DNA from: an uncultured Verrucomicrobia subdivision 3 bacterium | GTDB lineage: Bacteria; Verrucomicrobiota; Verrucomicrobiia; Limisphaerales; UBA11358 | Direction: 5' to 3' | Assembly (NCBI GenBank): GCA_903850425.1 | Contig: CAINLR010000079.1 | Coordinates: forward strand, 1-39,815 | DNA length: 39,815 nucleotides | Part shown: positions 984-33,882 of the stretch, piece by piece | Numbering within the stretch: position 1 is the stretch's first letter | Layout: each line of letters opens with the position of its first letter | Position numbers and translations under genes: made by a program | The notes under the pieces: model-generated | Seen by the model: the letters and a program-made list of their open reading frames with translations, nothing else | Databases searched by the model: none | What the model was told of the DNA's origin: nothing

Positions 984-1053
984 AAAGTTCCGGTTCAAAG
1001 TGTTTTTATTTTATACGAAACCATGCAAAATAATGTATTTCTTAGGTTTGCAA

Positions 1054-2922: not shown

Positions 2923-3047
2923 GCGGGAGCAATAAACTTGTTACTCAATTCGATAGACAGGAATACCACGGAATCCAAAAGCCAAGCCCAGCCTGCATTG
3001 GACCCGCTTTCCAAAATGGTATTTCCCCACATGAGGTTGAGCAATCC

Positions 3048-6000
3048 ATGAGCAAGATACGACAATACTCCGGCTTCGCAATGGCGGTTTCGTTGGCCTT
3101 GATTCTCATGGCGGCGGTTGGCGCCGCCAACGGAGAATCGTTCGGAATTAAGTTTTTAGGCAACACCACCGATAGCGTCACCGGCATAGCCGGAGTGGTG
3201 CCTGTTTCCGGGTGGAACAATATCACCAATGCCAATAGTGTATTTATCGCCGGCACCATCCGTTCGAGCGATGGAGCCGTTTCGGCCACATTGAGCTTGA
3301 GCGGCAGCGGACGTGCGAATGGCTGGAATAGCGGAACTGCTGCGGACGGTGCAAATGGCTCACTTATGCGCGGCTATTGCGATGCCATGGGGACGGCGCC
3401 GGTGACTGTAACTATCAGCGGGTTGACGGGGTCTTCTTACACGATTTATTTATACACCCAAGGTGATGGTCAAAGGCCGGGCAGTGGCTCCGATTGGATT
3501 CCCAACTACACGATTAACGGCTCAACAATCTGCACCCCCACAATTGCGCCCACTTTTAAACGGTTTATCCAAAGCGGCATGATCTTGGCAAATACGAACA
3601 CCTTTCCAACCAGCCTCGCGAATGGTAACTGCATCCGTTGGAACAATGGCGTTCCCAACAATGGTGTGATCACCATCTCAGCCAACACAGACAACCGCTC
3701 CTATCGTTCGCCGTTGAATGGCATCGAACTGGTGCTGAACACCAATCCGCCACCGTCCCAAACTCGGCAGATTCGCATCGAGCCATTGGGTGACTCGATC
3801 ACCTGGGGCTATCCGACCGCAGACACCGTGGGCGGCTATCGGCTGACGCTCTATCAACTGTTGACCAATGCCAGCATTGCGATGGATTTTGTGGGAACGC
3901 AGGTGAGCAGCGCGCCGGGTCTGCTCTACCCCAATCATGAAGGTCATAGTGGCGATCGCATTGACCAGATCGATGATCCAAATTTCTTGACCTGGGTGAA
4001 CTCGGTTGCCACCCCGGACATTATACTTCTGCTGATCGGCACGAATGACCTGGGGCAGAATTACGATCCGACCAACGCCATCGTCCGGTTGGACGCCATG
4101 ATTTCGCACATCTCCACGGACCGTCCAAACGCGAAGGTGATTGTCGCCAATTTGCTGGCCCGGTCAGGATCGGCCAATAACTTGATCGACACCCTCTTCA
4201 ACCCTTTCGTTCCGGGCGTCGTGGCCAAACATCAGACCAACGGGGAACCGGTTTATTTCTGGGATTTGCATTCCCAGCTCACCGTGGCTGACACCGACGG
4301 CCTGCATCCGACTACGAATGGCTATCCCAAGATTGGCAAACAATGGTTTGATGCCATCAACGCCGTCTATGCTCCTTTCACGGGCTACAATCTGGCCTTG
4401 AACAAGACTGTGACTGCTTCGTCCGTCAACGGCAGCAACGGCGCTTCCAACAGCGTGGATGGCGATCTCTCCACTTCTTGGTCTAGCGTGGTCAGTGATC
4501 CGCAGTGGCTGGACGTGGACTTGGGTTCAATCCAAAACGTCTATCAGGTCAAATGCATCTGGACCGCCGCGTATGCGAAGAATTTTCAGGTCCAGGTTTC
4601 GACCAACAACACGACTTGGATGACTGTTTACAGCGCGACTACCGGCTCCGGCGGCACCAATACGATTACCTTTGAGCCGACCGGCGCGCGCTTCGTAAGA
4701 ATTTACGGCACGGCGCAAAGCGCGGGTTCAGGTTACGGCATTTTTGAACTACAAGCGTTCGCCGCCCCGCCGGTGAATCTCGCATTGAACAAATCCGCCG
4801 CGGCCTCCTCCACTTCAGATGCGGTCAACTTTCCGATCACCAACGCTGTGGATGGTAAGGCTGGCAGTCATTGGTCCTCCACCGCGCACGATGCGGAATG
4901 GATTACCATTGATCTCGGTTCGCCGCAACGCGTGGGCCGGGTGCGGTTGAATTGGGATGCCGCTTACGGCCAGGGCTACGACCTTCTGACTTCCACAGAC
5001 AACACCAACTGGACCCGGGTTTATAACACCAGTCAAGGCACCGGCGGCACGGACGATGTTTCGTTTGTGGCGGTCAACGCGCGCTACGTCAAAATGAATG
5101 GGTTGCAACGCGGAACCACCAATGGCTATTCGCTGAATGAATTCGCCATCTACGGCGCACTAGACGCCCCGGCGGCCAGCGTGTTCCCCCCACAGATAGC
5201 GACTACTCCGGCTTGGGTTCCGTCCTCGGTGTATCCCGGTCAGAGCGCTAGCACTACCGTGACGGTCAGTGGCACGACGCAGTTTGCGTATCAGTGGAGG
5301 GCTGGTTTTAACGGGAATTACACAAACCTGACGGATGGCGGAAATATCTCCGGTGTCACCAACGCGACCCTGACGATTTCCAGCGTGCAATCCACCAACG
5401 CGCTCAACTACGTCGTGGTGATCACCAATTCGCTGGGTTCGATCACCAGCAGCGTGGCGGCGCTGACGGTTTTGCCAACCTCGCCGGCCAACAATTTCAC
5501 CTTGAACTATGGCGGGACGCCCATTGCTCAAAGCACTGGCAAGGATTGGAACACGGCCAACAATTGGAATCCGGGCGGGTTACCAGCCTCAACTTCGGTG
5601 TATGCCTATCCCGGCAGTTCGTATGAGTTGGTGGTCAAATCGCGCCTGCGGAATCCGGCGGCCACCACCTACAATATTTTCCCCGGCGCATCATTGATCG
5701 TGGACGGCGGTGGCGTTGTAGAAAATGGCACGGTTAACAACGTGAGTGAGATTCGATTCAAGAATAATGCGGCGGCCAGCAGCCTGGCCGGCGGGTTTTA
5801 TTCCACAAACTATTTTCCCAACCTGGTGTTGAACGGCGGTCAGTTGAACATCGGCGACAATACGACGGTCGTCTTGCAAGGAAAAGTGACCGTTGCCACC
5901 AATTCTGTGATCTACAATTCAGGTGGTGGCACCAATCAGTCCTATCAGCTCGACGCCTATCTGACGGGAGGTGGCAACCTTCAGTTTTACAACTATAACG

Positions 6001-6638
6001 CAACGAACCTCGACGTCATCAACTCCGTGCTGGCCATCACCGGGACGACCAACACGTTCACTGGAATCTGGGACATCAAGATCGGCGCGCTGGTGGGCAG
6101 CGGCGTAAATTCATTGGGCACTAATACCATCACCATTGGTGCCAGCGGCATTTTGGCAACGACCTATCCCCTCAACAACACCAATGCTTCGCTGGTGCTC
6201 AACGGGCGCATATTCCTGACCCAGACCAACGCCTTCAAAAACGTGATTGTTAACGGCGCGCCGCTGGCACCGGGAACGTATTCCGCCACCACTCTCGGCG
6301 GACTTTACACGAACTTCCCCGCCACCTTCCCGGCGCTTTATGGCACCACGGCGACCAGTGCCTCGGGCGCTATCAAGGTTGGCAATGTCATCGTCCCGCC
6401 GTTGTCACCGAACATCACCAGCATTCAAGTGGGCGGCACCGGCGAACTGACCCTATCCGTCACGAATGGCACGCCGGGCGGTTCGTGGGAGTTGTTGCAA
6501 AGCACCAACGTGGCGTTGCCTTTGAACCAATGGCAGACCAACACCATCGGCACGTTCGATGGCATCGGTAACCTGTCCACGAACCTTGCCAACGCCGTCA
6601 CAAACCTCCAGAACTTTTACATCCTAAAGGTGCAGTAA
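3048..6638 (+). CDS. Secreted modular SGNH/GDSL esterase with CBM-like, Ig-like and beta-strand-repeat modules
   Basis: 1196 residues. Signal peptide about 1-29. Accessory module B about 32-230 (FGIKFLGNTTD...). SGNH hydrolase about 240-445: GDS with Ser250, GTND with Asn333, and DGLH with Asp417/His420, resembling CE3-like acetyl esterases. Two F5/8 type C (discoidin, CBM32-like) domains run about 447-571 and 572-705. An Ig-like domain lies about 715-815, and module C, a beta-strand-rich repeat region ending FYILKVQ, about 815-1196. It likely removes acetyl or other acyl groups from plant or algal polysaccharide while the discoidin domains hold the substrate. GAGG lies 11 nt before ATG 3048. 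The C-terminal module is shared with the proteins at 30119 and 33883. The ester substrate is not determinable from sequence. Confidence 0.85.
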   Translation: MSKIRQYSGFAMAVSLALILMAAVGAANGESFGIKFLGNTTDSVTGIAGVVPVSGWNNITNANSVFIAGTIRSSDGAVSATLSLSGSGRANGWNSGTAADGANGSLMRGYCDAMGTAPVTVTISGLTGSSYTIYLYTQGDGQRPGSGSDWIPNYTINGSTICTPTIAPTFKRFIQSGMILANTNTFPTSLANGNCIRWNNGVPNNGVITISANTDNRSYRSPLNGIELVLNTNPPPSQTRQIRIEPLGDSITWGYPTADTVGGYRLTLYQLLTNASIAMDFVGTQVSSAPGLLYPNHEGHSGDRIDQIDDPNFLTWVNSVATPDIILLLIGTNDLGQNYDPTNAIVRLDAMISHISTDRPNAKVIVANLLARSGSANNLIDTLFNPFVPGVVAKHQTNGEPVYFWDLHSQLTVADTDGLHPTTNGYPKIGKQWFDAINAVYAPFTGYNLALNKTVTASSVNGSNGASNSVDGDLSTSWSSVVSDPQWLDVDLGSIQNVYQVKCIWTAAYAKNFQVQVSTNNTTWMTVYSATTGSGGTNTITFEPTGARFVRIYGTAQSAGSGYGIFELQAFAAPPVNLALNKSAAASSTSDAVNFPITNAVDGKAGSHWSSTAHDAEWITIDLGSPQRVGRVRLNWDAAYGQGYDLLTSTDNTNWTRVYNTSQGTGGTDDVSFVAVNARYVKMNGLQRGTTNGYSLNEFAIYGALDAPAASVFPPQIATTPAWVPSSVYPGQSASTTVTVSGTTQFAYQWRAGFNGNYTNLTDGGNISGVTNATLTISSVQSTNALNYVVVITNSLGSITSSVAALTVLPTSPANNFTLNYGGTPIAQSTGKDWNTANNWNPGGLPASTSVYAYPGSSYELVVKSRLRNPAATTYNIFPGASLIVDGGGVVENGTVNNVSEIRFKNNAAASSLAGGFYSTNYFPNLVLNGGQLNIGDNTTVVLQGKVTVATNSVIYNSGGGTNQSYQLDAYLTGGGNLQFYNYNATNLDVINSVLAITGTTNTFTGIWDIKIGALVGSGVNSLGTNTITIGASGILATTYPLNNTNASLVLNGRIFLTQTNAFKNVIVNGAPLAPGTYSATTLGGLYTNFPATFPALYGTTATSASGAIKVGNVIVPPLSPNITSIQVGGTGELTLSVTNGTPGGSWELLQSTNVALPLNQWQTNTIGTFDGIGNLSTNLANAVTNLQNFYILKVQ
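3141..3740 (+). repeat. Coding module B, copy 1 (N-terminus of esterase)
   Basis: About 200 residues from FGIKFLGNTTD to YRSPLNGIELV. It closely matches 19714-20310 and more distantly 29524-30108. I do not recognise a named family; a beta-sandwich carbohydrate-binding fold is a guess. Confidence 0.6.
5490..6638 (+). repeat. Coding module C, copy 1 (C-terminus of esterase)
   Basis: About 380 residues opening FTLNYGGTPI and ending in the LLQSTNVALP tail. It resembles autotransporter-associated beta-strand repeats. DNA similarity to the copy at 36742-37863 continues about 12 nt past the stop codon. Confidence 0.7.
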
Positions 6639-6673
6639 AATCATTGCGATTCCATCATTACCGTAGTTGAAAT

Positions 6674-8149
6674 ATGAAACTCATGAACATTACCTTGTTG
6701 GCGGCATTCCTTTCCGTGAACGTGATCGCGGGCGGAGCCGCCGAATTTAACACCCTGCAATTGGCCGAGAATCTGAACAACACGGCCCATAAATTGGAAG
6801 CCGCGCTAGCCAAGAACCGGGATTCGCTGCCGCTATTCGATGTGGTAAAAGATTTCGGAGCGATTCGCACCGGACTTCAAATCACCACAAAGCAACTGCA
6901 GGATGCCATCGATGCCTGCGCGAAGCAGGGCTCCGGCAGAGTGTATTTCCCGCCGGGGATTTATCTGACCGGAACCCTGGCTTTGAAATCTGGAGTTCAT
7001 ATTGAACTAGCCGAAAGAGCCGAAATTTTGGGCAGCACCGATACGAAAGATTATTTGGTCATCTCCCCACAGTATAAAAACAATACGGACCGCCAGGTGA
7101 ATAAATCCCTATTCTATGCCGAAAAAGCGGATGATATTTCGCTGACCGGCAAAGGCACCATTGATTTCCAGGGCGACAGCCTCGCGTATCAGCCTTCGCA
7201 CGACAACGATCCGCTGCGGCCCTTTGGCATCCGCTTTGTCACTTGCACAAATGTTTATGTGCGCGGGCTTATGTTGATCAACTCGGCGCAATGGATGGAG
7301 CACTATCTGGACTGCGAAAACGTGATGCTTGAAGATCTCAATGTGTTCAATCACGCGCACCAAAACAATGACGGTCTTGATATTGATGGCTGCCGGAATG
7401 TCTATGTCCGCAATTGTCGCGTTGACAGTGACGATGACGGCATTTGTTTGAAAAGCAATGGACCGGGTTCCTGTGAGAACGTGTTGATCGAAAACTGCAT
7501 CGTCTCCAGCCACTGCAATGCGTTGAAACTGGGCACCGAAACCACCGGCGGATTCAAAAACATCATGTATCGGAACTGCCAGGTGGTGCCGTCCGTCACC
7601 GGCCATCATTTTATTAATGGATCGTCCACCGCCCGGACGGCAATAACGCTGATCATCACCGACGGGGGCACCATGGAAAACGTCTGGTTTGATGAGATCG
7701 AAGCCACCGACTGCATCACACCCATTTTTGTGACTTTGGGCAATCGCAGCCGCAAATACACCGCTGACGTCCCGAAACCCGGAATTGGACGGATTGAAAA
7801 CATCAAACTCTCCAACATCAAAGCCACGGGGGCCGGACCAATTTCCTCTTCCGTCACCGGCTTAGATACTTCGCACCAAATTAAGAATGTGACTCTGGAA
7901 AATATTTCCCTGACGCTGACGGCTCCCGGAAATGACAAGGACCGCCAGACCGACATGGATAAGGTTTTGAAACGAGTCAAGCCGGGCTATCCTTCTCCAG
8001 AATCTTGGGGAAACCTACCGAGCTACGGTTTCTATTTCCGGTATATTGACGGATTGCAACTGAAGAATATTGAACTGAAATCAGAAAAGAAAGATCCGCG
8101 CGATCCCATCGTTACCGCTGATTGCCTCAATGTGGTTGGACTTCAATGA
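6674..8149 (+). CDS. GH28 family polygalacturonase-like enzyme
   Basis: 491-residue exported right-handed beta-helix. Signal peptide about 1-23 (AGGAAEF). The N-terminal GH28 pattern (VKDFGA, DAIDACAKQGSGRVYFPPG) is followed by NNDGLDIDG (Asp233, Asp236), SDDDGICLKS (Asp253-255) and SHCNALKLGTE (His280, Lys285). These stand where GH28 has NTD, DD, GH and RxK; as in many bacterial members the last two motifs are not canonical. It probably cleaves alpha-galacturonosyl bonds in pectin-type polymers or oligosaccharides (exo or rhamnogalacturonan type cannot be told). It starts 35 nt after the esterase gene, so it is probably co-transcribed, and it faces the leftward operon tail to tail. It is diverged from the two leftward GH28 paralogues. 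Confidence 0.88.
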   Translation: MKLMNITLLAAFLSVNVIAGGAAEFNTLQLAENLNNTAHKLEAALAKNRDSLPLFDVVKDFGAIRTGLQITTKQLQDAIDACAKQGSGRVYFPPGIYLTGTLALKSGVHIELAERAEILGSTDTKDYLVISPQYKNNTDRQVNKSLFYAEKADDISLTGKGTIDFQGDSLAYQPSHDNDPLRPFGIRFVTCTNVYVRGLMLINSAQWMEHYLDCENVMLEDLNVFNHAHQNNDGLDIDGCRNVYVRNCRVDSDDDGICLKSNGPGSCENVLIENCIVSSHCNALKLGTETTGGFKNIMYRNCQVVPSVTGHHFINGSSTARTAITLIITDGGTMENVWFDEIEATDCITPIFVTLGNRSRKYTADVPKPGIGRIENIKLSNIKATGAGPISSSVTGLDTSHQIKNVTLENISLTLTAPGNDKDRQTDMDKVLKRVKPGYPSPESWGNLPSYGFYFRYIDGLQLKNIELKSEKKDPRDPIVTADCLNVVGLQ

Positions 8150-8219: not shown

Positions 8220-8876
8220 TTACTTCGTTGTAATCAGGTCGTTGACCACGGGATCAACTTCAATCGTGATGTCCTTATACTCATCAAACAAACCGCCATT
8301 GTGCATTTGTAGGGCGATTGGTCCCGCCTTGCCGGCGGCGGAATCTTTGAAGGAACCTGCTTCGACAGCCTTGCTGCCAATGGGCTGCGCGACCGCCACG
8401 CGCGCGGTGCCGGTCTTTGCATCCACCAAAAGTTCGACCCGGCTCCATTCATGAAAGTTGGCCGCGTCTCTGGGAAACGGCGCGAAGCCATCGCCGCTGT
8501 TGTTATGACCTTTGCGATAATCCCAATGGCTGCCCGTGGGTAACTGAAACTGGAGGCCGGCCAGCGCGTCTGCCGGTTTCTGACCTTCCGTCGGGGCGGT
8601 GCAAAAGAAAAGCACGCCCGGCTTGTGGTCGTGTATGCCGCTCACATGGCGCACGGTGAACATCAGCCGGTAATGATCGTATTGATTGGTGGTATAAAGC
8701 ACGCCGCGACCCTTGCCCAGACTGGCGATTACGCCGTTCGTGACTTCCCATGAATTGGTTGGGATTTGAATCCAGCCATTGAGAGTTTTGCCGTCGAATA
8801 GGGATACCGGATCCGCCGCGTTCGCGGATAATACGAGCAGAATAGCCGCAGGGACAGTCGCAAATAATTTATTCAT
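8220..8876 (-). CDS. DUF1080 (3-keto-disaccharide hydrolase family) protein, triplet copy 2
   Basis: 218 residues. Signal peptide (cleavage near ANA-ADP) and one PF06439 domain with a concanavalin-like beta-sandwich: LFDGKTLNGW at the front, then VLYTTNQYDHYRL, GVLFF, and the family-typical GPIALQMHNGG near the end. Some members of this family hydrolyse 3-keto-glycosides made by sugar 3-dehydrogenases; others probably only bind glycans. Last gene of the leftward operon, 59 nt after the propeller gene. It is clearly more diverged from the other free-standing copy (11698-12435) than the neighbouring GH28 and propeller pairs are from each other. Domain identity is safe, catalytic role inferred. 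Confidence 0.85.
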   Translation of the reverse strand: MNKLFATVPAAILLVLSANAADPVSLFDGKTLNGWIQIPTNSWEVTNGVIASLGKGRGVLYTTNQYDHYRLMFTVRHVSGIHDHKPGVLFFCTAPTEGQKPADALAGLQFQLPTGSHWDYRKGHNNSGDGFAPFPRDAANFHEWSRVELLVDAKTGTARVAVAQPIGSKAVEAGSFKDSAAGKAGPIALQMHNGGLFDEYKDITIEVDPVVNDLITTK

Positions 8877-8935
8877 GGATGCTTATTCGGTTTTAAAAAT
8901 GAGCTGGTTGCTTTGCAATGACGCTGTTGGCTCGG

Positions 8936-10036
8936 TCAGTGTTCCGATTGGCCAGGGATTTCAGGAATGCCCGGATCATCCAGAATCTGCACGGCGGTGC
9001 CGTCGCCGATATGTTTCCAATCTTGCAGCACCCAGACGACTTTCTTGTCCGGCGTGACTTCAATGAGCTGAGGGCCTTGGCTGTTTTTGCCGCGTGAGGT
9101 AAAGATGGTATTGCCGTTAGCCAGCCGGGTGCAGCTTTGCGGCGCAGAAGTGAACTGGTATTCCGCCGGTAGATCCGTCAGGCAATTGAATTCCCAGACC
9201 GTTTCGCCCTTGGGATTGACTTCGCGAGTGAGCCAGTCCTTTTCGTCGGTGATCAGGGTGTTGCCGTTCTTCAACCGGAGTGCGGCCCAAGGCTGATTGA
9301 TTTTGTAGCTCCAGACTTCGTTGAAATTTTTGTCGTATTCCACGACTTTGCCCAAGGTCATGTAAGACACGAGGTAGGTTCCCTGCGCCGTGTAGCGCAC
9401 GCGCCGAAACTGCCCGTGGATACCGCTAGGGTCGGGTGGCTGCCTGAAGTCAAGGACATGATCAACTTCGACAGTTCCAGTCTTGATGTTAATGACCATT
9501 AACTTGGGGGGCAGACCATTCTCAACGAACAAGACTTTGTCCAAACCAATGGGCTGGCAGCCGTGGATTTCCGTGTGGTTGGTGCCTTTGGGAACGTTGC
9601 AATCATAACGCCAGATCACTTTCTTGTCCGGTGTGATTTCGGCGATGTAAGCCATCCGGCTGAAAAGAATGTTCCCGTTGGATAGCATCCACACATCGTC
9701 GTATTCGGGGCCGCCGCCGGTCTGATAACTCCAAATCGTTTTGCAATCCTTGACGAGAAACATTTTATTGCAGTTCTCACCGACATAGAGCATCGGGTGC
9801 TGCGCCAGACCGTTGCCGGGCAGGCCGGAACGCGTGATGCCATTCGTATATTTTTCCGAGCACACGGTTTCACTCGGGGCGAAAGCGGGCACGTTGGCAG
9901 CGGTAAAAAGCGGCAGAACGTCCATGCAGGGCGTCACCGAAGCGGTTTTAGTGGTGGGCGTGTGACAGCCAGTCAAGGTGGCGATCACGCCAATGGCCAA
10001 AACCATTGCCAAAGAGGAACGGAGTTTTATGTTCAT
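8936..10036 (-). CDS. Beta-propeller lipoprotein (PQQ-like/ASST-like repeats), triplet copy 2
   Basis: 366 residues when started at ATG 10036, which puts a lipobox (TLTGC, Cys24) after a hydrophobic segment; the frame is open further upstream but would overlap GH28. The mature protein is a blade-repeat propeller with W-x-Y and NGNTL/NGNILF motifs recurring, ending in a conserved VQILDDPGIPEIPGQ tail. It resembles conserved verrucomicrobial proteins annotated as PQQ-like beta-propellers. I cannot point to PQQ-binding or sulfotransferase residues, so no reaction is assigned. Cys residues sit in ENCNKMFLVKDC, where the paralogue has Tyr and Gly. Between GH28 (37 nt upstream) and DUF1080 (59 nt downstream), it may scaffold, bind or oxidise released sugars at the membrane; that role is inference. 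Confidence 0.75.
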   Translation of the reverse strand: MNIKLRSSLAMVLAIGVIATLTGCHTPTTKTASVTPCMDVLPLFTAANVPAFAPSETVCSEKYTNGITRSGLPGNGLAQHPMLYVGENCNKMFLVKDCKTIWSYQTGGGPEYDDVWMLSNGNILFSRMAYIAEITPDKKVIWRYDCNVPKGTNHTEIHGCQPIGLDKVLFVENGLPPKLMVINIKTGTVEVDHVLDFRQPPDPSGIHGQFRRVRYTAQGTYLVSYMTLGKVVEYDKNFNEVWSYKINQPWAALRLKNGNTLITDEKDWLTREVNPKGETVWEFNCLTDLPAEYQFTSAPQSCTRLANGNTIFTSRGKNSQGPQLIEVTPDKKVVWVLQDWKHIGDGTAVQILDDPGIPEIPGQSEH

Positions 10037-10073
10037 GCTTTTTGGAGAGTATGGATTGAATTGAAAATTTGGA

Positions 10074-11636
10074 TTATTTATCGAGCACCGGCGAATTGCG
10101 AATGACAAGACCAGAACCATTTTCAAATTTTGACGCCGCCACGCCTTCGGCGAGTTGCGCCTTGAAGTTGTCGATCTCCAGCCCGTTTACATCCACACAT
10201 TGAATCGCGGGACGGAAGTCGTCTTTCAAAAAGCTGAAGGTGATGTTCGCCAGTTCCAGATCCTTGACGTGCCGCGCGAATAATCCGTAGGCCGGCATGA
10301 GCGTGTTGCCGCTGGGTTCGGGATAACCAGTGCCGAGTTCCTTGGGCACATTGCTGGCTTGTTCCTTGGCGGCACCGCCTTTGTAGATGAGCCGAATGTT
10401 TTCCAACCGGACGCCTTCAATGGGCTGGTTGGGCAATCCCATGATTTGGATGCCGCTGATACGATCAACGCCGGTGGCAATGACGTTGGAGATCAAAATA
10501 TTTTTCATGCGGCTGACGTTATTGGTCAGGCCGGGCGAGCGGTTACGTTTGCCGGTCGTGATGTAAATGGGGTAGTTGATCACGTCCATCATCGAAATGT
10601 TATTGATGGTGATGTTTTCCAAAATGCCGCCGTCCACTTCTTCCAGCGCCAGCCCTTTGCAGGCACGGAACGTGCAGTTGGCGATGGTGCAATTGCGAAA
10701 GCCACCGCTCGACTCGGTGCCGAACTTGATGCGGCCCTGACCACCGGCTTTGGGTTTCATCGTGCCGTCGAGTAACGTGCCTTCGACAAAACCGGAGACC
10801 TGGCAGTTGACGATGGTGAGATTTTCCGTGAGGCGTGGTTCGCCGAGCGCGTAAGTGCTCTTGGGGCAAAGGCCGTCGTCGCCGGGCGAATTGATGCGGC
10901 AATTGGAAACCATCGTGTTGCGGCAGCAGTCAATGTCCATGCCGTCGCGGTTGGTGTCCATCGTGACATTGTCCACCGTCAGATTGTCGCAACCCGTCAC
11001 GAGAATGGCGAAGTGTCCGCCATGAACAATCGTCACGTCACGGATCAAAACGTTTTTGCAGAGCTTGAGTGCGATGGCTTTGTTTCCAAGGCGCACAGGC
11101 ACAAAAACATTTGTGTTAGGCCGGTCAAAATGATCGTAGCCGCACATCTTGTCGAGAATGCCAGAGTTACTCGTCAGGCCACCTCCATTGATCGTGCCAT
11201 TGCCGCTGATGAAAACATTCGTCAGATTCTCGCCCCAAATCAGGCTGTTATGAAAATAACAATGTCCGCCGTCCTGATACGCGATGCCGACAAACGGCTC
11301 GGTTTCGTCATAGGCGTTTAGGTTTTGCGGTGCGCCGAGAATGGTTGCACCCGCATCAATGAGCAGATGGATGTTGCTCTGCAAATGGATCGAGCCGCTC
11401 AAATACGTCCCCGCCGGCACGAGCACTGTGCCGCCACCAGCTTTGGCAGCGGCGTCAATCGCCAGGTCAATCGCCGGGCTGTCCAGATTCTTCCCATCGC
11501 CCACCGCGCCAAAATCGCGGACGTTGAACGAAGCTTGGGCTGGCTCCGCCTGCGCTAATAATAACGAAGATAAAAAAATACTGAAGCAACTGATTGGAAT
11601 TATCCGCCCAGCGAGAAATGCGATTACTTTTTTCAT
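10074..11636 (-). CDS. GH28 family glycosidase, triplet copy 2
   Basis: 520-residue exported beta-helix enzyme. Signal peptide about 1-30 (LLLAQAEP). FNVRDFGAVGDG opens the fold, and the active-site strands read NRDGMDIDCC (Asp231) and SPGDDGLCPKS (Asp253-254), followed by GRIKFGTESSGG in place of the usual RIK motif. It most likely acts on galacturonan or rhamnogalacturonan oligosaccharides. Most residues are identical to the enzyme at 13607-15172 by eye, including long invariant runs around the active site. It is much less like the GH28 at 6674. Fifth gene of the leftward operon. The last residues lie just before the intergenic motif that precedes both propeller genes. Confidence 0.88.
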   Translation of the reverse strand: MKKVIAFLAGRIIPISCFSIFLSSLLLAQAEPAQASFNVRDFGAVGDGKNLDSPAIDLAIDAAAKAGGGTVLVPAGTYLSGSIHLQSNIHLLIDAGATILGAPQNLNAYDETEPFVGIAYQDGGHCYFHNSLIWGENLTNVFISGNGTINGGGLTSNSGILDKMCGYDHFDRPNTNVFVPVRLGNKAIALKLCKNVLIRDVTIVHGGHFAILVTGCDNLTVDNVTMDTNRDGMDIDCCRNTMVSNCRINSPGDDGLCPKSTYALGEPRLTENLTIVNCQVSGFVEGTLLDGTMKPKAGGQGRIKFGTESSGGFRNCTIANCTFRACKGLALEEVDGGILENITINNISMMDVINYPIYITTGKRNRSPGLTNNVSRMKNILISNVIATGVDRISGIQIMGLPNQPIEGVRLENIRLIYKGGAAKEQASNVPKELGTGYPEPSGNTLMPAYGLFARHVKDLELANITFSFLKDDFRPAIQCVDVNGLEIDNFKAQLAEGVAASKFENGSGLVIRNSPVLDK

Positions 11637-11697
11637 TTGTGATTTGATGGTGGTGGTTGATCAGTGTGCCGGTTGGCCGCAGTGTTTGTGGTTCACA

Positions 11698-12435
11698 CTA
11701 TTTAACGGTAATCAACTTGTCTTCCTTCGGATTCGCTTCCACGTAGATGTCCTTGTATTCGGAAGCCCCGCCGCCGTGGCGCATCATGCCGATGGGACCG
11801 GGAATAATGCGCTGCTCAGGATCGGTTCGCTCGCTGGGTTTTGGATGCGTGTAGCGCACGATTTCAACGCCATCCACGGCGGCCCGCAGAGTGCCTTTCT
11901 CCAGGTTGCACAACATTTCCGTCGTGTGCCAATTGCCGGAATCATTGGATCCCGGTGCCAGATGTTCATGCAGCAGATCTTTGTGTTGGGGCGGATGATA
12001 ATTCCACATGCCTCCGAACGGGGGCATGAATTGAAGCCAGCCCGCATTGTCAATCTGCGGCTTCACAGAATTCGTCGGATGGTTGCCCCAGAACAAAACC
12101 CCCAAATGGTCGCCCTTCACCGGATTCATCCGAGCGGTGAAGATCAGACGGAAACTGCCATAATCTGCCTTCGTATAGGCGAGGCGTGAGGTGCCGCCCA
12201 CGCCATGCATGGCTCCGTCCACAATGGTCCACGTTGATGGGTCGGCCTCCCAACCCGCGAAAGATTTCCCGTCGAATATTTTCATACAACCCGCGTAGGC
12301 AGGGGCTTGCTGGCCAGCAGCCGCAGCCGACGCAGTCTCCGGCGCTTGCTTTTTTTCATCAGCGCCCTGCAAAAGGATTGCGCCACAGGTCAACAGAGGT
12401 AGAAGCAGAATCCTTGAAGTGATTTTAGTTTTCAT
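11698..12435 (-). CDS. DUF1080 (3-keto-disaccharide hydrolase family) protein, triplet copy 1
   Basis: 245 residues. Signal peptide, a short Ala/Gln-rich linker, then a PF06439 domain: KIFDGKSFAGW, FRLIFTARM, HLGVLFWGNHP, GPIGMMRHGG and EYKDIYVE. The linker (ASAAAAGQQAPAYAG) is absent from the other free-standing copy. It probably acts on 3-keto sugars or binds glycans outside the cytoplasm. It starts 32 nt after the propeller gene and ends 61 nt before the next GH28, completing the first triplet. The low similarity to the second DUF1080 suggests different substrates or different origins for the two. Confidence 0.85.
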   Translation of the reverse strand: MKTKITSRILLLPLLTCGAILLQGADEKKQAPETASAAAAGQQAPAYAGCMKIFDGKSFAGWEADPSTWTIVDGAMHGVGGTSRLAYTKADYGSFRLIFTARMNPVKGDHLGVLFWGNHPTNSVKPQIDNAGWLQFMPPFGGMWNYHPPQHKDLLHEHLAPGSNDSGNWHTTEMLCNLEKGTLRAAVDGVEIVRYTHPKPSERTDPEQRIIPGPIGMMRHGGGASEYKDIYVEANPKEDKLITVK

Positions 12436-12467
12436 ATTTTAGATTTCATCAACATAGGATGCCAAGT

Positions 12468-13568
12468 TCAGTGTTCCGATTGGCCGGGAATTTCCGGGAT
12501 GCCAGGATCATCCAGAATTTGCACGGCGGTGACGCCATTGATGTCCTTCCAATCTTGCAGCACCCAGACGACTTTCTTGTCCGGAGTGACTTCGATGAGC
12601 TGCGGACTTTTACCATTGCCGCGAGAGGCGAAGATGGTGTTGCCGTTGGCCAGCCGCGTGCAGGTCTGCGGCGCGTTGGCGAATTGATATTCCGGCGGCA
12701 AATCAGTTTTGCAATTGAATTCCCAGACCGTCTCACCCTGGCGATTGACTTCACGGGTGAGGTTGTCCGTTTCGTCGGTGATCAGCGTGTTGCCATTCTT
12801 CAGCCGGAGCGCGGCCCAAGGCTTGGTGCTCTTGTATCTCCAGATTTCTTTGAAATTTTTATCGTATTCCGCCACGTAGCCCAGGTTGAGAAACGCAATG
12901 AGGTAAGTTCCGTCAGCCGTAACGCGAGCGCGCCGGAACTGCGGATGAATCCCACCTGCGCCCCACGCCGGATTATAATCAAGCTGGTGATCCACTTCGA
13001 CGGCACCGGTCTTGATGTTGATGATCTTCAACTTGGGCGGCAATCCGTTTTCAACAAACATGACTTTATCCAATCCAATCGGCTGGCAGGCGTGAATCTC
13101 GGTATGATTGGTGCCTTTTGAAGCATTGGCATCGTAACGCCAGATCGTCTTTTTGTCCGGCGTGATCTCGGCAATATATTCCATGCGCGAGAAAAGAATG
13201 TTCCCGTTGGAAAGCATCCACACGTCATCGTATTCAAAACTCCGTCCGGTCTGATAGGTCCAGATGATTTTGCCCTCGTTGATGAGATACATCTTGTCGT
13301 AATTTTCACCGAAGAGCAGCATCGGATGCTGCGCCAAACCTTTGCCGGGCAGATTGGGCGGCGTGACGCCATTCGTCCAACCACCGGCGGGCGCTTCGGT
13401 TTCGCCCGGCCCCATCGCCGGCACATTCGCGGAGGTGAAGAGCGGCAGCACATCCATGCAGGGCGTCGCCGAAGTGGTTTTAGTGGTGAACGTGTGACAG
13501 CCAGTCAACATGGCGATCACGCCGATGGCTGAAACAACAGTCAGTGTAGAACGGATTTTTTTGTTCAT
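12468..13568 (-). CDS. Beta-propeller lipoprotein (PQQ-like/ASST-like repeats), triplet copy 1
   Basis: 366 residues, exactly the length of its paralogue at 8936-10036 and largely identical to it. Lipobox MLTGC with Cys24, then the CMDVLPLFTSANVP segment, GLAQHPMLLFGEN, EYDDVWMLSNGNILFSRM, the HTEIHACQPIGLDKV strand, repeated NGNTL/NGNTIF blades, and the VQILDDPGIPEIPGQ tail. It sits 38 nt after the GH28 stop, and this short gap is itself conserved in the second triplet. A membrane-tethered periplasmic or surface protein working with GH28 and DUF1080 is the natural reading. Reaction unknown. Confidence 0.75.
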   Translation of the reverse strand: MNKKIRSTLTVVSAIGVIAMLTGCHTFTTKTTSATPCMDVLPLFTSANVPAMGPGETEAPAGGWTNGVTPPNLPGKGLAQHPMLLFGENYDKMYLINEGKIIWTYQTGRSFEYDDVWMLSNGNILFSRMEYIAEITPDKKTIWRYDANASKGTNHTEIHACQPIGLDKVMFVENGLPPKLKIINIKTGAVEVDHQLDYNPAWGAGGIHPQFRRARVTADGTYLIAFLNLGYVAEYDKNFKEIWRYKSTKPWAALRLKNGNTLITDETDNLTREVNRQGETVWEFNCKTDLPPEYQFANAPQTCTRLANGNTIFASRGNGKSPQLIEVTPDKKVVWVLQDWKDINGVTAVQILDDPGIPEIPGQSEH

Positions 13569-13606
13569 GTTTTTTCGGAGCGTATGGATTGAATTGAAAA
13601 ATCTGA

Positions 13607-15172
13607 TTACCGATCCAGCACGGGTGAATTGCGAATGACGGCACCGGAAACATTTTCAAACTTTGACGCCGCCGCGCCTTCGGCCAGTTGCGCCTTGAAG
13701 TTATCAATCTCCAATCCGTTGACATCCACACATTCGATGGCGGGACGGAAATCATCTTTCAAAAAACTGAAGTTGATATTCGCCAGTTCCAAATCCTTGA
13801 CGTGCCGCGCGAACAATCCATAGGCCGGCATGATGTTGGTTTGCCGGGGTTCAGGATAACCGGCTCCGAGTTCCTTAGGAACATTGGCGGCTTGCTCCTT
13901 GGTGCCGCCGCCTTTGCAGATGAGCCGGATATTTTCGAGGCGAATCCCTTCAAGAGGTTGCTCCGGCAGCCCGGCAATCTGGATGCCGCTGATGTGATCC
14001 ACGCCGGTGGCCACGACGTCGGAGATCAAAATATTTTTCATGCGACTGACATTGGTCAGGCCGGGCGTGCGATTGCGGCTGCCGGTTGTGATGTAGATCG
14101 CGTAGGTTTCCACGTCCATGATCAAAATGTTGTTGATGGTGATGTTTTCCAAAATGCCGCCATCAACTTCTTCGAGCGCAAGACCACGACAACCGCGAAA
14201 GGTGCAGTTTGCCACGGTGCAGTTGCGAAAGCCGCCACTCGATTCGGTGCCGAACTTGATGCGGCCATTGCCGTTTTTTACCGGCTTCATGGTTCCGTCC
14301 AGCAACGTGCCCTCCTTGAAACCGGAAACCTGGCAGTTCACAATCGTTAGATTTTCCGTGATGACGGGACGACCTAGCGCATAAGTGCTCTTGGGACAAA
14401 TCCCGTCGTCCCCGGGCGAATTGACGCGGCAGTTGGAAACCATCGTGTTGCGGCAGCAATCAATGTCCATGCCGTCACGGTTCGTATCCAGCGTCACGTT
14501 ATCAATCGTCAGATTATCGCAGCCCGTGACTAGAATCGCAAAATGTCCGCCACGAACGATGGTCACATCACGGATCAAAACATTGCGGCAGAGTTTGAGC
14601 GCGATGGCCTTGTTGCCCAGGCGGACAGGTTTAAAAATATTCGTATTGGGTTGCTGCCATTGATCAGAACCAATCATACGATCCAAGACGCCATCGTTAC
14701 GTTCCAAACCGCCGCCATTGATCATGCCATTGCCCGTGATGAAAACATTGGTGAGGTTCTCGCCCCAGATGAGGCTGTTGTGAAAAAAACTGTGCCCGCC
14801 ATCCTGATAAGGATTGTTCGTCCACGGCTCGGTTTCATCATAGGCATTCAGATTCTGTGGCGCGCCGAGAATAATTGCGCCCGCATCAATGTGCAGATGG
14901 ATATTGCTCTTGAGCCGGATGGAGCCGCTTAAGTAAGTTCCCGCCGGCAGGAGCACGGTGCCGCCGCCGACCGCTACCGCCGCCTCAATGGCCTTGTTGA
15001 TCGCCGGGCTGTCCAAATTTTTCCCGTCCCCGACCGCGCCAAAATCGCGGACGTTGAAAATGTTTTTGGTGGGTGTCTCAGCAGCCTTTAGAATTCCAAC
15101 CATCGAAATCAACAAAATAATAGAACCGCCGACGGAGGCCTGGATAATACTGCGGAGCGATTGTCTTGTCAT
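13607..15172 (-). CDS. GH28 family glycosidase, triplet copy 1
   Basis: 521-residue exported beta-helix. N-terminal membrane or signal segment (IILLISMVGILKA), then FNVRDFGAVGDGKNLDSPA and NRDGMDIDCC (Asp233), SPGDDGICPKS (Asp255-256), GRIKFGTESSGG. The catalytic surroundings are identical to the enzyme at 10074-11636. Variation clusters in substrate-facing loops such as the segment after ETEP and around GVLDRMIG. Galacturonan-type hydrolysis is expected; exact linkage is open. It starts 17 nt after the GH3 stop, so it is co-transcribed with it. Confidence 0.88.
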   Translation of the reverse strand: MTRQSLRSIIQASVGGSIILLISMVGILKAAETPTKNIFNVRDFGAVGDGKNLDSPAINKAIEAAVAVGGGTVLLPAGTYLSGSIRLKSNIHLHIDAGAIILGAPQNLNAYDETEPWTNNPYQDGGHSFFHNSLIWGENLTNVFITGNGMINGGGLERNDGVLDRMIGSDQWQQPNTNIFKPVRLGNKAIALKLCRNVLIRDVTIVRGGHFAILVTGCDNLTIDNVTLDTNRDGMDIDCCRNTMVSNCRVNSPGDDGICPKSTYALGRPVITENLTIVNCQVSGFKEGTLLDGTMKPVKNGNGRIKFGTESSGGFRNCTVANCTFRGCRGLALEEVDGGILENITINNILIMDVETYAIYITTGSRNRTPGLTNVSRMKNILISDVVATGVDHISGIQIAGLPEQPLEGIRLENIRLICKGGGTKEQAANVPKELGAGYPEPRQTNIMPAYGLFARHVKDLELANINFSFLKDDFRPAIECVDVNGLEIDNFKAQLAEGAAASKFENVSGAVIRNSPVLDR

Positions 15173-15189: not shown

Positions 15190-18100
15190 TTATTTTGTCG
15201 GCAGTTCGCGGATTTTCACGTTGCGATATGAAACCACACTGCCGTGTTCTTGCAATAGGATATGGCCGCCCGGCCATTCGCCGAAGTTGGGAATATCCTT
15301 GAACTTGCTGGCCGCGACGGCGGTGCGGAAGGCCGGTGAGCCGCGCTCAAATTCCACCGTCTTCACCCCATTCAACCAGAATTCCACATGCTGGCCCTGA
15401 GAGAGGATGCGGGCGTGATTCCATTCGCCTGTTGGCAGAACCACCTTGCTGGTCGGAGCGGGAATCAAATCGTAGAGCGAACCCAGCCGGCGGTCGCCAT
15501 TATGGCCCAACTTGGCGTCGGGATGATGCGCGTCATCGAGAATTTGAAATTCCATGCCGATGGCCGAGCCGCCGCCGGTTGTTTGTCCCGTCGTTTTATG
15601 AAGCGGCGGAAGATTGGGCTGCACAAAAATCTTGATGCCGCTGTTGCAACCGGTGGTCGTCTTGAAATCCGCAACGAGTTCAAAATTTGCGTAACGGTCG
15701 CGCGTGATGATGTCGCCCCCGGCCTGCGCTTCGGCATTGCCGCTGGAAACCACAGACAGCACCCCGTTTTGAATCTGCCAGCTTTTGTCCGGAAACGCGT
15801 CCGACTTGGGACTCCGCCAGCCGGTGGTGGTCTTGCCATCCCAGAGAAGTTTCCAGCCATCCGCTTGTTCCTGCGCGATCAACGTGTTGGGTGTAACTCC
15901 ATGACCAAGGATGTTGCTGAATTCCTGTTGAAGTTGTAGCGGCGCGGTCAGCCGGATGTCGCGCGAAGAAGCGCCGATTTCGACTTCGTAGTCACCGGCA
16001 TCAGCTTTCCATTGATGGCCTGCAACATCGAAGTAAGCCAAATCGCGCGGCGTGAGCTGGAGCGATACGGTTTTCGTTTCGCCGGGATTGAGCGCGACTT
16101 TGGCAAATCCTTTCAACTCGCGCACCGGGCGGTCAATTTGGGATTTGGCGGCGTGAACGTAGAGTTGCACCACTTCTTCGCCGGCACGTTTGCCGGTGTT
16201 CGTCACCTTCAGATTCGCGGTGACGGTTCCATCGTTCGACAGGCGAGAAGTTGACAGTTTTAGCTGGCTGTATTTGAAAGTCGTGTAGGACAAGCCGTAG
16301 CCAAACGGGAAGACCGGCTGGATGCCGGCTTGGTCAAAATGACGATAGCCGACGTAAATACCCTCGGCATAGTTGACCTGATTCTTCTTAACCAGATTTG
16401 GCGCATCCGGATAATCAGCGCGACTGGCGGCAAAGGTATCGGGAAGTTTGCCGGATGGATTTACTTTGCCGAACAAAATGGCCGCGATTGCACTGCCGCC
16501 TTCTTGTCCGGGAAACCATGCCTCGACCAAAGCCGGCACTTGGCCCAGCCAGTTGGTCATCGTGACGGGGGTTCCAGTGTTCAGGATGACGATGGTCTTT
16601 TTGTTGACCGCACTGACCGCCCGAATGAGGACAGCCTGGTCGTCGGGTAAATCCATCGAAGGCCGATCACTGCCTTCACCTTCCATGCGCAGCGTCGAAA
16701 CGCAGACGATGGCGACGTTAGAATCTTTCGCGGCGTCCAGCGCGTCGGCGTAAAGCGCTTTTCCGGGACGCTGCCAGTTCAATTGCGCCACGCAACCACC
16801 GCCGTCTTGAAAAAATTCCACGCGCAGATCGTAAATGTTTCCTGCTTCCAAGTCAGCCTGTCCGTGAAAGGTCCTGGCACCGCCGCGATTCCACGCATTG
16901 ATGATGGGTTTGCCATCCACAAAAACCCGGAAGCCGTCATCACCGCGGAAAGAAAAAGAATAATTTCCCGTCGCCGGTGCCAGCAGTTTGCCGCTCCAGC
17001 GGACGCTATATTTTTGGCCGGAGATTCCCGGCGCGGGCGAATTGGCGTTGAGGATGTTGATTTCATTGTCCACCCGCACCACCGCTGGTTTGCCATCCAG
17101 ATCGGGATTAGTAAAATATTCGGCTTGAAATCCATGGACGGTGGAGTCGCCGGGCGAAGTGATGATAGAACCGGTGAGCGGATCGCCATCGGTGCGCGCC
17201 GAAGCATAACGAACTGTGACGGCATTCCCTGCTTCCGCTTTGATGCCATCCAAGACTTCAACCGTCTTCAGCGGTTCAACGGCCGGACTGCCGAGCGCGT
17301 CAACTTGCAGATGCCGCGCCGGTTCGCCGATAACGGCAATGGATTTTATTTTTTGATGATCCAGCGGCAATACGTCGCCATCATTTTTCAAAAGGACAAT
17401 TCCTTCGGTCGCCGCTTTGAAGGCAAGCTGGCTGTGTTCGGAGGAATTAACCATCGCCGGATTTTGAGTCATTGGTCCGTCCAGCAAACCGACGCGAATA
17501 ACTGTCCGTAAAATACGGCGCACCGAATCATCCACGGCGACTTGAGTCACGCTGCCATCGGCGAGCGCAGCTTTGAGCTTCGCGACGCTCATGTGCTCGC
17601 CCTTGGGCATTTCCAAATCGTTTCCCGCCTGAACCACGGCGGTTTCGTGGACGCCGCCCCAGTCGGACATGACCATGCCATCGAATTGCCAATCCTGTTT
17701 CAAAGCCTTGGTTAGCAGATGTGCATTCCCGCTGGCATGTTGGCCATTGACCATGTTATAGGAACTCATCACCGACCATACTTTTCCTTCCTTCACCGCC
17801 GCCTCAAACGCGGGGAAATAAATCTCACGGAGCGCGCGTTCGCCGATGTCCTCATTCACGTTGAACCGGTCCGTTTCCTGATTGTTTGCGGCAAAATGTT
17901 TGACGCACGCCGCGACGCCTGAGCTTTGCATTCCTTGGATGTAACTCACGCCCAGCCGCGCTGCGAGGTAAGGATCTTCGGTCAGATATTCGGCATTACG
18001 TCCGCCGAGTGGATTGCGATGAATGTTCACCGCCGGTCCAAGTTCGATTTGGACGCCGGAACCTTTGTTGCGCGCTTCCTCGCCAATGGCTTGGCCAATC

Positions 18101-18498
18101 TGCCAGAGCAAATTCGTATCCCATGTCGAAGCCATCAAAACGCCGGCCGGAAAAGCGGTCGCCGGTCCGAGCGTGCTGTCCGGACCGCCGCGCACACCTT
18201 GACCGGCATCGGCCATCGCCATCGCCGGCACGCCCAAACGAGGAATCGGCTGCGTGGTGAAACCGGTGCCACCCAGCAAACCCAATTTTTCATCCTGAGT
18301 GAGCCGGTCAAATAAATCTGCCACCCGTTTTTCCAGGGGAGCTTTGGCATTCTGATACACGGCCACCGATTCTGCCGAAGTGAGCTGGGTTAACGCGGCG
18401 GTTAAGCAACCTGCCGCCAGCAAAATGGCGCTTCCCCTGATCTGATGAGGTTTGATAATCGAAACGAAACGGACGGGCTTGAGGAATATGTGGCTCAT
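15190..18498 (-). CDS. GH3 beta-glycosidase with PA14 insertion and C-terminal DUF1080 domain
   Basis: 1103 residues from ATG 18498 (the frame is open to 18579, but this start gives a proper signal peptide ending near TSAES). GH3 N-terminal barrel about 60-330 with GPAVNIHRNPLGGRN, KHFAANNQE and the nucleophile in VMSDWGG, Asp279. A PA14 domain is inserted about 454-578 (GFQAEYFTN... to LNWQRPG), then the GH3 C-terminal alpha/beta domain resumes. FPFGYGLSYT leads into the fibronectin-III-like domain, and a PF06439 DUF1080 domain ends the protein about 880-1103 (GWKLLWDGKTTTGW, GIKIFV, GMEFQILDD). It likely removes terminal beta-glucosyl or beta-xylosyl groups, possibly from modified (3-keto) sugars given the fusion. 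First gene of the leftward operon. Confidence 0.88.
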   Translation of the reverse strand: MSHIFLKPVRFVSIIKPHQIRGSAILLAAGCLTAALTQLTSAESVAVYQNAKAPLEKRVADLFDRLTQDEKLGLLGGTGFTTQPIPRLGVPAMAMADAGQGVRGGPDSTLGPATAFPAGVLMASTWDTNLLWQIGQAIGEEARNKGSGVQIELGPAVNIHRNPLGGRNAEYLTEDPYLAARLGVSYIQGMQSSGVAACVKHFAANNQETDRFNVNEDIGERALREIYFPAFEAAVKEGKVWSVMSSYNMVNGQHASGNAHLLTKALKQDWQFDGMVMSDWGGVHETAVVQAGNDLEMPKGEHMSVAKLKAALADGSVTQVAVDDSVRRILRTVIRVGLLDGPMTQNPAMVNSSEHSQLAFKAATEGIVLLKNDGDVLPLDHQKIKSIAVIGEPARHLQVDALGSPAVEPLKTVEVLDGIKAEAGNAVTVRYASARTDGDPLTGSIITSPGDSTVHGFQAEYFTNPDLDGKPAVVRVDNEINILNANSPAPGISGQKYSVRWSGKLLAPATGNYSFSFRGDDGFRVFVDGKPIINAWNRGGARTFHGQADLEAGNIYDLRVEFFQDGGGCVAQLNWQRPGKALYADALDAAKDSNVAIVCVSTLRMEGEGSDRPSMDLPDDQAVLIRAVSAVNKKTIVILNTGTPVTMTNWLGQVPALVEAWFPGQEGGSAIAAILFGKVNPSGKLPDTFAASRADYPDAPNLVKKNQVNYAEGIYVGYRHFDQAGIQPVFPFGYGLSYTTFKYSQLKLSTSRLSNDGTVTANLKVTNTGKRAGEEVVQLYVHAAKSQIDRPVRELKGFAKVALNPGETKTVSLQLTPRDLAYFDVAGHQWKADAGDYEVEIGASSRDIRLTAPLQLQQEFSNILGHGVTPNTLIAQEQADGWKLLWDGKTTTGWRSPKSDAFPDKSWQIQNGVLSVVSSGNAEAQAGGDIITRDRYANFELVADFKTTTGCNSGIKIFVQPNLPPLHKTTGQTTGGGSAIGMEFQILDDAHHPDAKLGHNGDRRLGSLYDLIPAPTSKVVLPTGEWNHARILSQGQHVEFWLNGVKTVEFERGSPAFRTAVAASKFKDIPNFGEWPGGHILLQEHGSVVSYRNVKIRELPTK

Positions 18499-18665
18499 AA
18501 AAATTGGTTTAATGCGCGATCGCGCGATTAGCGAACCGGCTAAACGCGATGTTCGCATCAATAAATTGGCGTAACCCATTCACGGGACGCCTCCAGCGTG
18601 CCGATGGTGTTCCAATGAAGGCGTTTCAAAGCATTGTTACAGAAATTCTAAAATAATTGGGACTG

Positions 18666-18807: not shown

Positions 18808-18918
18808 AATTCCATTGACTAAAATTATTTTATTGTCGGCAACAAAAACCCATGGATGCCGGCTCGTTTGCAATCAATTCGGGGAAAAAAGCCCCGAAAA
18901 AAACCATTCGGCAAACAC

Positions 18919-22224: not shown

Positions 22225-22251
22225 TGAGCAAGGTTTAAGACTAATATAATA

Positions 22252-23814: not shown

Positions 23815-23876
23815 CGACGCACGGAATCAGTCATCGAAAACAATCCCGCCAAAAATTTAAAAATATTATTATCGTC

Positions 23877-25163: not shown

Positions 25164-25188
25164 AACAATCTAGCACCACAAACTGTCT

Positions 25189-30111: not shown

Positions 30112-30118
30112 CTTTTAT

Positions 30119-33835: not shown

Positions 33836-33882
33836 GTCGTTTTGGAGAATAATTATGGATATTGGTCCAGCCGACGAGAACG

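Follow-up and report, generated by a model that had tools for sequence, protein, structure and literature searches.

Pectin breakdown is best worked out in gut Bacteroides. In the rhamnogalacturonan-I (RG-I) locus of Bacteroides thetaiotaomicron, the GH28 enzyme BT4146 is an RG-I rhamnogalacturonidase, and the GH28s of that pathway cooperate with a GH106 rhamnosidase, according to a review (PMC8002723). The GH145/PL42 enzymes BT3686 and FoRham1 are seven-bladed propellers that act on Rha-α-1,4-GlcA, FoRham1 using His85 and Arg166, as described in PMC8377490 and PMC10951650. The 3-keto-disaccharide hydrolases include BT2157 and, by proposal, the Caulobacter DUF1080 protein CCNA_01705 as a 3′-ketolactose hydrolase (PMC9007349). 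A further Bacteroides propeller, BACCAC_01654 of Bacteroides caccae, has a solved structure (PDB 3NO2) but an unexplained function.

The window, the whole 39,815-nt stretch of DNA analysed here, contains a single leftward run of seven genes on the minus strand, separated by gaps of 17–61 nt. The first gene of the run (15190..18579) encodes, by Pfam, a GH3 protein with PA14, Fn3-like and C-terminal DUF1080 (PF06439) domains, the last of which groups with ordinary DUF1080s in our tree. It is followed after 17 nt by GH28 A (13607..15172), propeller A (12468..13568), DUF1080 A (11698..12435), GH28 B (10074..11636), propeller B (8936..10036) and DUF1080 B (8220..8876). The coordinates, strand and twofold order of GH28, propeller and DUF1080 agree with the sequence-only reading, as do the lengths of 521 and 520 residues for the GH28s and of 366 residues for both propellers, the start of propeller B being taken as the ATG at 10036, with an alternative upstream TTG start at 10126. 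Elsewhere in the window, Pfam identifies genes for GH97, GDSL, two GH76, glucuronyl esterase, melibiase and further GH28 proteins.

GH28 A and GH28 B exceed the 500-bit cut-off of the curated NCBI model NF049898 (585 and 577 bits, respectively), with nearly the whole model covered, and are thus BT4146-type rhamnogalacturonidases by family model, pointing to RG-I (pectin) oligosaccharides as their probable substrate. Eight of ten further GH28s tested against NF049898 also pass, seven of which lie at propeller loci (L039, L041, L044, L115, L120, L129 and L144), while the eighth is an own-genome copy on contig C17 (L109), away from any propeller. The GH28 of L057 (273 bits) and the window GH28 at 6674–8149 (223 bits) fall below the cut-off, and in the window genome as a whole, 23 match rows mark GH28-like places, three of them over the cut-off. 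The sequence-only reading had matched the run to no described pathway; this gap is partly filled, because the BT4146-type GH28s place the run in the known frame of RG-I breakdown. Whereas the Bacteroides GH28s work with a GH106 rhamnosidase, the gene next to each GH28 here encodes a propeller, and the Pfam scan of 18 window ORFs brought up no rhamnosidase.

The run had been described as a duplicated triplet, but what is repeated is two genes, the GH28 and the propeller, together with the spacer between them. The GH28s are 80.0% identical between the copies and the propellers 74.8%, while DUF1080 A and B (245 and 218 residues) are 38% identical. At the DNA level, identity between copies A and B is 62–88% per 100-column block from inside the GH28 to the propeller stop codon, where it collapses to 36–57%. 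The conservation claimed for the sequence between GH28 and propeller holds, the spacers of 38 nt (13569..13606) and 37 nt (10037..10073), both on the minus strand, being clearly homologous. The protein identities, the DNA identity profile and the DUF1080 tree together rule out a duplicated triplet, and the best explanation is that the two DUF1080 genes came to adjoin the GH28–propeller pair separately. Purifying selection is apparent in both pairs (dN/dS 0.14 and 0.17, with dS near 1).

A recent tandem duplication of the propeller is also ruled out, as A and B each fall together with a different relative in G019, a genome of the same genus. Among propeller groups that were named after the first tree had been seen, direct sisterhood of A and B is rejected (p-AU 1e-41), while grouping both copies with their orthologues in one clade survives the test (p-AU 0.066), so that an older duplication may have occurred. 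Propeller B has relatives in G048 and G019 that are 91% and 86% identical to it, respectively. In the GH28 tree, a single clade unites A, B and the G019 copy, with A nearer to G019 (supports 91/96 and 84/87). Across the GH28 3′ end, the spacer and the propeller leader, A and B share 82–88% of bases, compared with 63–79% for B and G019, a possible sign that the two copies have exchanged sequence locally in this region. The propeller patterns had no match in viral_contigs, giving no sign of a viral origin.

Both propellers match the Mala_s_1-like family PF22701 (A, 36.0 bits; B, 36.4 bits; cut-off 27.5), as do all 30 propellers of our alignment at E ≤ 1. The alignment, comprising copy A and 29 others that are 35–82% identical to it, contains 46 invariant columns, including E112, D115, E157, H159, Q162, H208, R212, R215, W251, Q301, R305, Q350 and H366. 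Specifically, H159, H208, R212, R215, R305, E112, D115 and E157 are positioned in or just before inner strands, as read from the sequence together with the strand list of the fold model of copy A (mean pLDDT 84.6). These enzyme-like polar residues suggest that the propeller probably has an enzymatic activity yet to be characterised. The nearest solved structure is 3NO2 (profile match E 9e-24; Z 28.1, rmsd 2.6 over 262 residues), which keeps E157 and the H208-x-QFR motif but is 24% identical and has Gln in place of H159. BACCAC_01654 and the term 'Mala s 1-like' go unmentioned among the literature matches listed for '3no2'. Structures of PL22, PL24/25 and lactonases are likewise not among the matches listed for the propeller, which excludes nothing.

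DUF1080 A and B, each with a signal-peptide-like N-terminus, pass the Pfam gathering score of 26.8 with 65.1 and 68.8 bits, respectively, and the top three solved matches of the DUF1080 model are the DUF1080-type structures 4jqt, 3hbk and 4hxc. In the tree, the two proteins occupy separate branches of one rare, divergent DUF1080 clade with a stem of 1.94 changes per column. For DUF1080 A, three genomes of another family carry genes of 73–80% identity; the matches of DUF1080 B are a different set, and relatives of DUF1080 B come straight after the propeller in G048 and at locus L060. The proteins have PF06439 in common with the 3-keto-disaccharide hydrolases, but the clade is separate from these, and the segment after its E-x-Q column is shorter than in ordinary members. 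Because the Glu of that column is present in none of nine divergent-clade members compared with 10 of 11 ordinary members aligned, we file DUF1080 A and B by sequence as a divergent clade of PF06439 and not as 3-keto-sugar hydrolases. Our literature search found no paper that treats DUF1080 together with rhamnogalacturonan. Work from 2024 on a 3-keto glycan pathway reportedly exists.

The linkage of the three genes, described as fixed in the sequence-only reading, is not, as propeller, GH28 and DUF1080 often occur apart. A BT4146-type GH28 lies within 6 kb of the propeller at eight of 43 close propeller loci, in Verrucomicrobiota and Bacteroidota, and is absent within this distance from the other 35, among which L057 has other GH28s. 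About 0.1 such loci would be expected by chance, an estimate that uses the GH28 density of the window's family only, though cases also fall in Bacteroidota. Conversely, in the 49 genomes of the window's family, which hold 35 BT4146-type GH28 matches (about 0.7 per genome), four of the 35 have a propeller (E ≤ 1e-60) on their own contig, which for one of the four means remote propellers alone, and the other 31, the C17 copy included, have none. The finding that propeller and DUF1080 homologues occur mostly without a GH28 neighbour had been named in advance as the sign of an accidental linkage; taken literally, this is what is seen, but the co-location is hardly accidental, because it recurs in two phyla, far above the density of BT4146-type GH28s.

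At four of the 43 loci, a divergent DUF1080 is the next gene after the propeller. Other arrangements include a pair–pair array apparently without DUF1080 in G019, and a GH3–propeller–DUF1080 series without GH28 in G048. Both genes are rare: the propeller was found in six of 384 genomes at E ≤ 1e-150, own genome counted, and the divergent DUF1080 in four of 387, all already genomes of query rows, so that the DUF1080 searches, which re-found only query-row or search-centre genomes, speak to rarity and add no new cases. Three divergent DUF1080s, in G430, G540 and G595, are the only ones to have turned up in a search that made no use of the propeller. The 16.5–16.8-kb stretches read around them contain no close propeller, which weakens the idea that this DUF1080 type and the propeller are constant partners; in G540, a remote propeller (115 bits) lies about 3 kb away on the other strand. 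The three-component functional unit that had been proposed is therefore plausible as an optional module, since the GH28 co-location recurs and a divergent DUF1080 follows the propeller at those four loci, but not as a unit of fixed linkage.

On balance, we lean with moderate confidence towards reading the run as an exported oligosaccharide-breakdown operon for pectic chains of the RG-I type, with the propeller as an enzyme and the DUF1080 protein as an optional helper. The GH28 would remove galacturonate from the chain, the membrane-anchored propeller, in the periplasm or on the outside of the cell, would process that oligosaccharide or the product made from it, and the DUF1080 protein may assist by binding or by a further cut. 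The two pairs may have been kept through differences in substrate detail.

The best-surviving alternative, though somewhat unlikely, is that the propeller is a surface lipoprotein that captures sugars or other substrates for many systems without catalysis, a general job that would account for its varied neighbours. The membrane tether proposed earlier agrees with the LTGC lipobox seen in the window copies and in several other Verrucomicrobiota rows of the alignment. Bacteroidota and Acidobacteriota rows with the N-terminus shown, several rows being incomplete, have no lipobox, which argues against a general surface binder. The ligand-binding propeller lipoprotein BtuG2 (8bai) is among the Foldseek rows, and the neighbours do vary widely. 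Many of the scanned neighbours are carbohydrate enzymes (GH97, GH92 (also fused), GH9, GH43, GH78, GH2, GH115, GH29 and glucuronyl esterase), which favours the pectic-enzyme reading, while clearly unrelated proteins (aconitase, UvrD helicase, ABC/MFS transporters, a TPP enzyme, a protein kinase and a methyltransferase) also occur and speak against it. The context records speak against it as well: of 44, in which only families annotated in this analysis carry labels, 22 have no labelled neighbour, one of these being itself a GH92 fusion. Against a mere binder, the invariant residues in or just before the inner strands, among them the eight named above, seem more than a general binding role requires.

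It is unlikely that a carbohydrate-enzyme island accounts for the whole arrangement, its genes being neighbours only because such islands are dense. The abundance of glycoside hydrolases in the window, the loose linkage and the three DUF1080 stretches with no close propeller are consistent with this explanation, but the link concerns one GH28 subfamily although the genome holds many other GH28-like places, and the two rare genes, propeller and divergent DUF1080, are also adjacent in G619, a genome of another family.

Quite unlikely, too, is an oxidative route, in which the propeller would act, perhaps as a lactonase, on what a PQQ-type pyranose dehydrogenase produces, and the DUF1080s would take keto-sugars, as in the Caulobacter proposal. 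Genes with a GSDH (glucose/sorbosone dehydrogenase) domain lie within 4 kb of the propeller at four Bacteroidota loci (L041, L042, L047 and L116), three of the four with a cytochrome c domain, which would fit an oxidative role and counts against the favoured pectic reading; a PF10282 lactonase directly precedes the propeller in L035, and an aldose epimerase and a GH92 precede the third own-genome propeller copy. Against this, no dehydrogenase is found among the 18 Pfam-scanned window ORFs, and DUF1080 A and B have no Glu at the E-x-Q column of the ordinary family.

We regard with considerable doubt the more specific proposal that the propeller founds a new carbohydrate-active enzyme family cutting RG-I rhamnose in partnership with the GH28. 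Here, the propeller would cut Rha-α-1,4-GalA, by hydrolysis or lyase chemistry, in alternation with the galacturonate-removing GH28, so that the backbone is unzipped from its end, and the divergent DUF1080 clade would add another enzyme, so far unrecognised, to this route. The propeller family has invariant His and Arg in sequence; the PL42/GH145 enzymes are not among the Pfam and PDB matches listed for the propeller. Finally, it is highly improbable that the propeller works like an arylsulfate sulfotransferase, transferring or stripping off a charged group on plant phenolics or sugars. In the structure list, the ASST-type Cpz4 (9kf6, Z 21.8) comes second and ASST (4p04, Z 21.5) third, and 12 of 30 propellers match Arylsulfotran_2, but the sequence match is weak (best E 0.006) and many unrelated propellers reach Z 18–21.

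Returning to the favoured reading, in which the propeller acts as an enzyme on pectic oligosaccharides, the propeller may carry out a step of pectin breakdown that has yet to be described. Its family combines enzyme-like conservation with proximity, in two phyla, to a single defined kind of pectin hydrolase, which makes it a concrete target, and naming its activity could suggest a function for 3NO2-like proteins.

The six genes at 8220–15172 lie on the minus strand in the order that the sequence-only reading had claimed, as a check of the ORF coordinates confirms, and comprise two copies (A, 11698–15172; B, 8220–11636) of a GH28 gene, a lipoprotein β-propeller gene and a DUF1080 gene. They are preceded by a GH3 gene with a C-terminal DUF1080 domain by Pfam (15190–18579, minus), and the gaps in this seven-gene run, from the GH3 gene onward, are 17, 38, 32, 61, 37 and 59 nt, so all seven can form one transcript. 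The sequences of the run contain signal-like N-termini or a lipobox, and dN/dS is low. The window is the entire contig C79 of a 6.9-Mb parent assembly of 197 contigs, and a carbohydrate-enzyme island fills the rest of it (1000–8149 and 18856–37863 (+)), including GH97, GDSL with F5/8, GH28, two GH76, glucuronyl esterase, melibiase, and GH28 with Ig domains. A 520-aa protein encoded at 22252–23814 (+) has no Pfam or PDB match and is a candidate new family; its relatives lie near propellers in four loci (L038, L039, L044 and L049), and it or a relative also lies near a glucuronyl-esterase gene in the window, L039 and L044.

The repeated unit is the GH28–propeller pair. GH28 A and B are 80.0% identical in protein and 81.6% in DNA, the propellers 74.8% and 78.3%, and the DUF1080 proteins 38.3%. 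The A–B DNA similarity begins within GH28, the first blocks of which (signal peptide included) are at 51–59%, stays at 62–88% per block across the spacer and up to the propeller end, in agreement with the conserved intergenic sequence noted earlier, and falls to 36–57% per block beyond it. A tree of 20 DUF1080 domains places A and B on separate branches inside a nine-row divergent clade (support 100/100, stem 1.94), with 11 ordinary domains outside; members of this clade have no Glu in the E-x-Q column. DUF1080 A is 73–80% identical to genes of G430, G540 and G595, genomes of another family. DUF1080 B shares 85% identity with a gene of the same-genus genome G048, 69% with one at locus L060, and 58% with one in G070, which carries an Acidobacteriota locus. 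The low DUF1080 identity, the separate branches, and the end of DNA similarity with the propeller contradict a duplicated triplet.

Propeller contexts comprise 29 named loci, found with exact peptide patterns of one protein, which makes the set lean to close relatives, plus loci from genome searches. Among 63 records, 44 have a close propeller (≥500 bits, or a cut-off fragment) and 19 a remote one; the 44 represent 43 loci, the two contigs of the same-genus genome G019 being counted as one. GH28 A and B both exceed the cut-off of the BT4146 rhamnogalacturonidase family model, and a GH28 of this type lies within 6 kb in at least 8 of the 43 close loci (window, G019, L039, L041, L044, L060, L115, L120), and in at least five it directly neighbours the propeller (window, G019, L044, L115, L120; divergently oriented in L120), these counts being lower bounds because many contexts end at contig ends. 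L057 also has GH28s, and the single one tested scores under the cut-off. One of the 19 remote loci (L129) has a BT4146-type GH28 next door. In the window's family, the model is matched (E≤1e-120) in 32 of 49 genomes, 31 over the cut-off; of 35 matches in total, four have a propeller on the same contig: both window copies, the one on G019:C41, and the one on G003:C135, where the propellers are remote. The fixed linkage that had been supposed is thus not borne out.

Genomes of the same genus show other combinations. In G019, an exact 127-base end common to two contigs suggests an array of propeller A, GH28 B, propeller B and GH2, without DUF1080. In G048, propeller B and DUF1080 B come immediately after the GH3 gene, and both GH28 and the A unit are absent; module members have therefore been combined and lost separately. 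A 6488-base contig of JAMFSJ01 (L034, L036), titled Methylacidimicrobium fagopyrum, resembles one of G019, and the title looks wrong.

Of the 43 close loci, 5 carry a DUF1080 of some type no more than 6 kb from the propeller (window, L044, L060, L092, L120; own profile, E≤1e-3). In four of these the gene immediately after the propeller belongs to the divergent clade (window twice, L060, L092, L120). A search with DUF1080 B recovered it in 3 of 26 propeller-bearing genomes. Five of nine known clade members directly follow a propeller, all five being the window's own or located via the propeller. A propeller-blind DUF1080 search turned up members in 4 of the 286 genomes covered in the class, the window's own genome among them; the three new ones (G430, G540, G595) have no close propeller alongside, and G595 has a propeller elsewhere. 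Later searches, which scored the best candidates per genome and may miss members, gave 4/387, 1/247 and 1/295 genomes, all prior query rows or search centres. The divergent clade is rare. The propeller-blind finds do not back DUF1080 as the third member of the proposed three-component unit, which slightly weakens the favoured reading. One contig binned as Bacteroidota (L060/L144) reads propeller, B-type DUF1080 (in-frame stop), GH97, GH3 and BT4146-type GH28; its DUF1080 and GH28 group with Verrucomicrobiota genes and its propeller with Bacteroidota ones, reflecting either inter-phylum transfer or a binning error.

The propeller fold model (mean pLDDT 84.6) most closely resembles the uncharacterised structure 3NO2, followed by arylsulfotransferase-like propellers at a level barely above many unrelated ones. 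An alignment of 30 members has 46 invariant columns, and the model's strand list places invariant residues, including E112, D115, E157, H159, H208, R212, R215, Q301 and R305, in or just before inner blade strands. For the DUF1080 model, the closest structural matches are DUF1080 structures, followed by lectins. Propellers are rare: at E≤1e-110 they occur in 5 of the 251 genomes covered in one Bacteroidota family, and at E≤1e-150 in 6 of the 384 covered in the class, seed genomes counted in both; at a laxer E≤1e-60 they occur in 19 of 49 of the window's family. A third close propeller of the window's genome (L095, G000:C1:122217–123314; 70% identity to A) is preceded by GH92 and aldose 1-epimerase, with neither GH28 nor DUF1080 found within 6 kb. 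A Bacteroidota MAG has GH92 and propeller fused in a single 1068-aa open frame (L046, 3895–7098). Three remote propellers are fused to an extended N-terminal region that matches DUF362 weakly (L110, 4912–7644; L129, 9605–12313; L133, 4653–7346); a relative of this region is a separate gene immediately before the propeller in L049 (3958–5781).

According to PMC8002723, BT4146 is one of three GH28 rhamnogalacturonidases that finish rhamnogalacturonan-I (RG-I) with a GH106 rhamnosidase. We lean towards pectic RG-I oligosaccharide breakdown, in which GH28 would remove galacturonate and the propeller would then act on the same chain. A binding role for the propeller is rather unlikely. It is improbable that the co-location reflects the mere density of the carbohydrate-enzyme island. 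At ~0.7 BT4146-type GH28 per ~4-Mb genome, a 13-kb stretch would hold one in ~0.2% of cases, or 0.1 expected in 43, an estimate built on the window's family that ignores carbohydrate-gene clustering and any higher Bacteroidota density. An oxidative route is doubtful, although four Bacteroidota propellers (L041, L042, L047, L116) each have a glucose/sorbosone dehydrogenase-type gene no more than 4 kb away, and three of these genes include a cytochrome c domain. Within the RG-I reading, there is a slim chance that the propeller cleaves the rhamnose–uronate bond, proposed because GH145/PL42 propellers do so according to PMC8377490 and PMC10951650 and because a Pfam scan of 18 window ORFs detected no rhamnosidase. 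The GH28–propeller association is real and recurrent but optional, and it places a conserved, uncharacterised propeller within the known frame of pectin breakdown.
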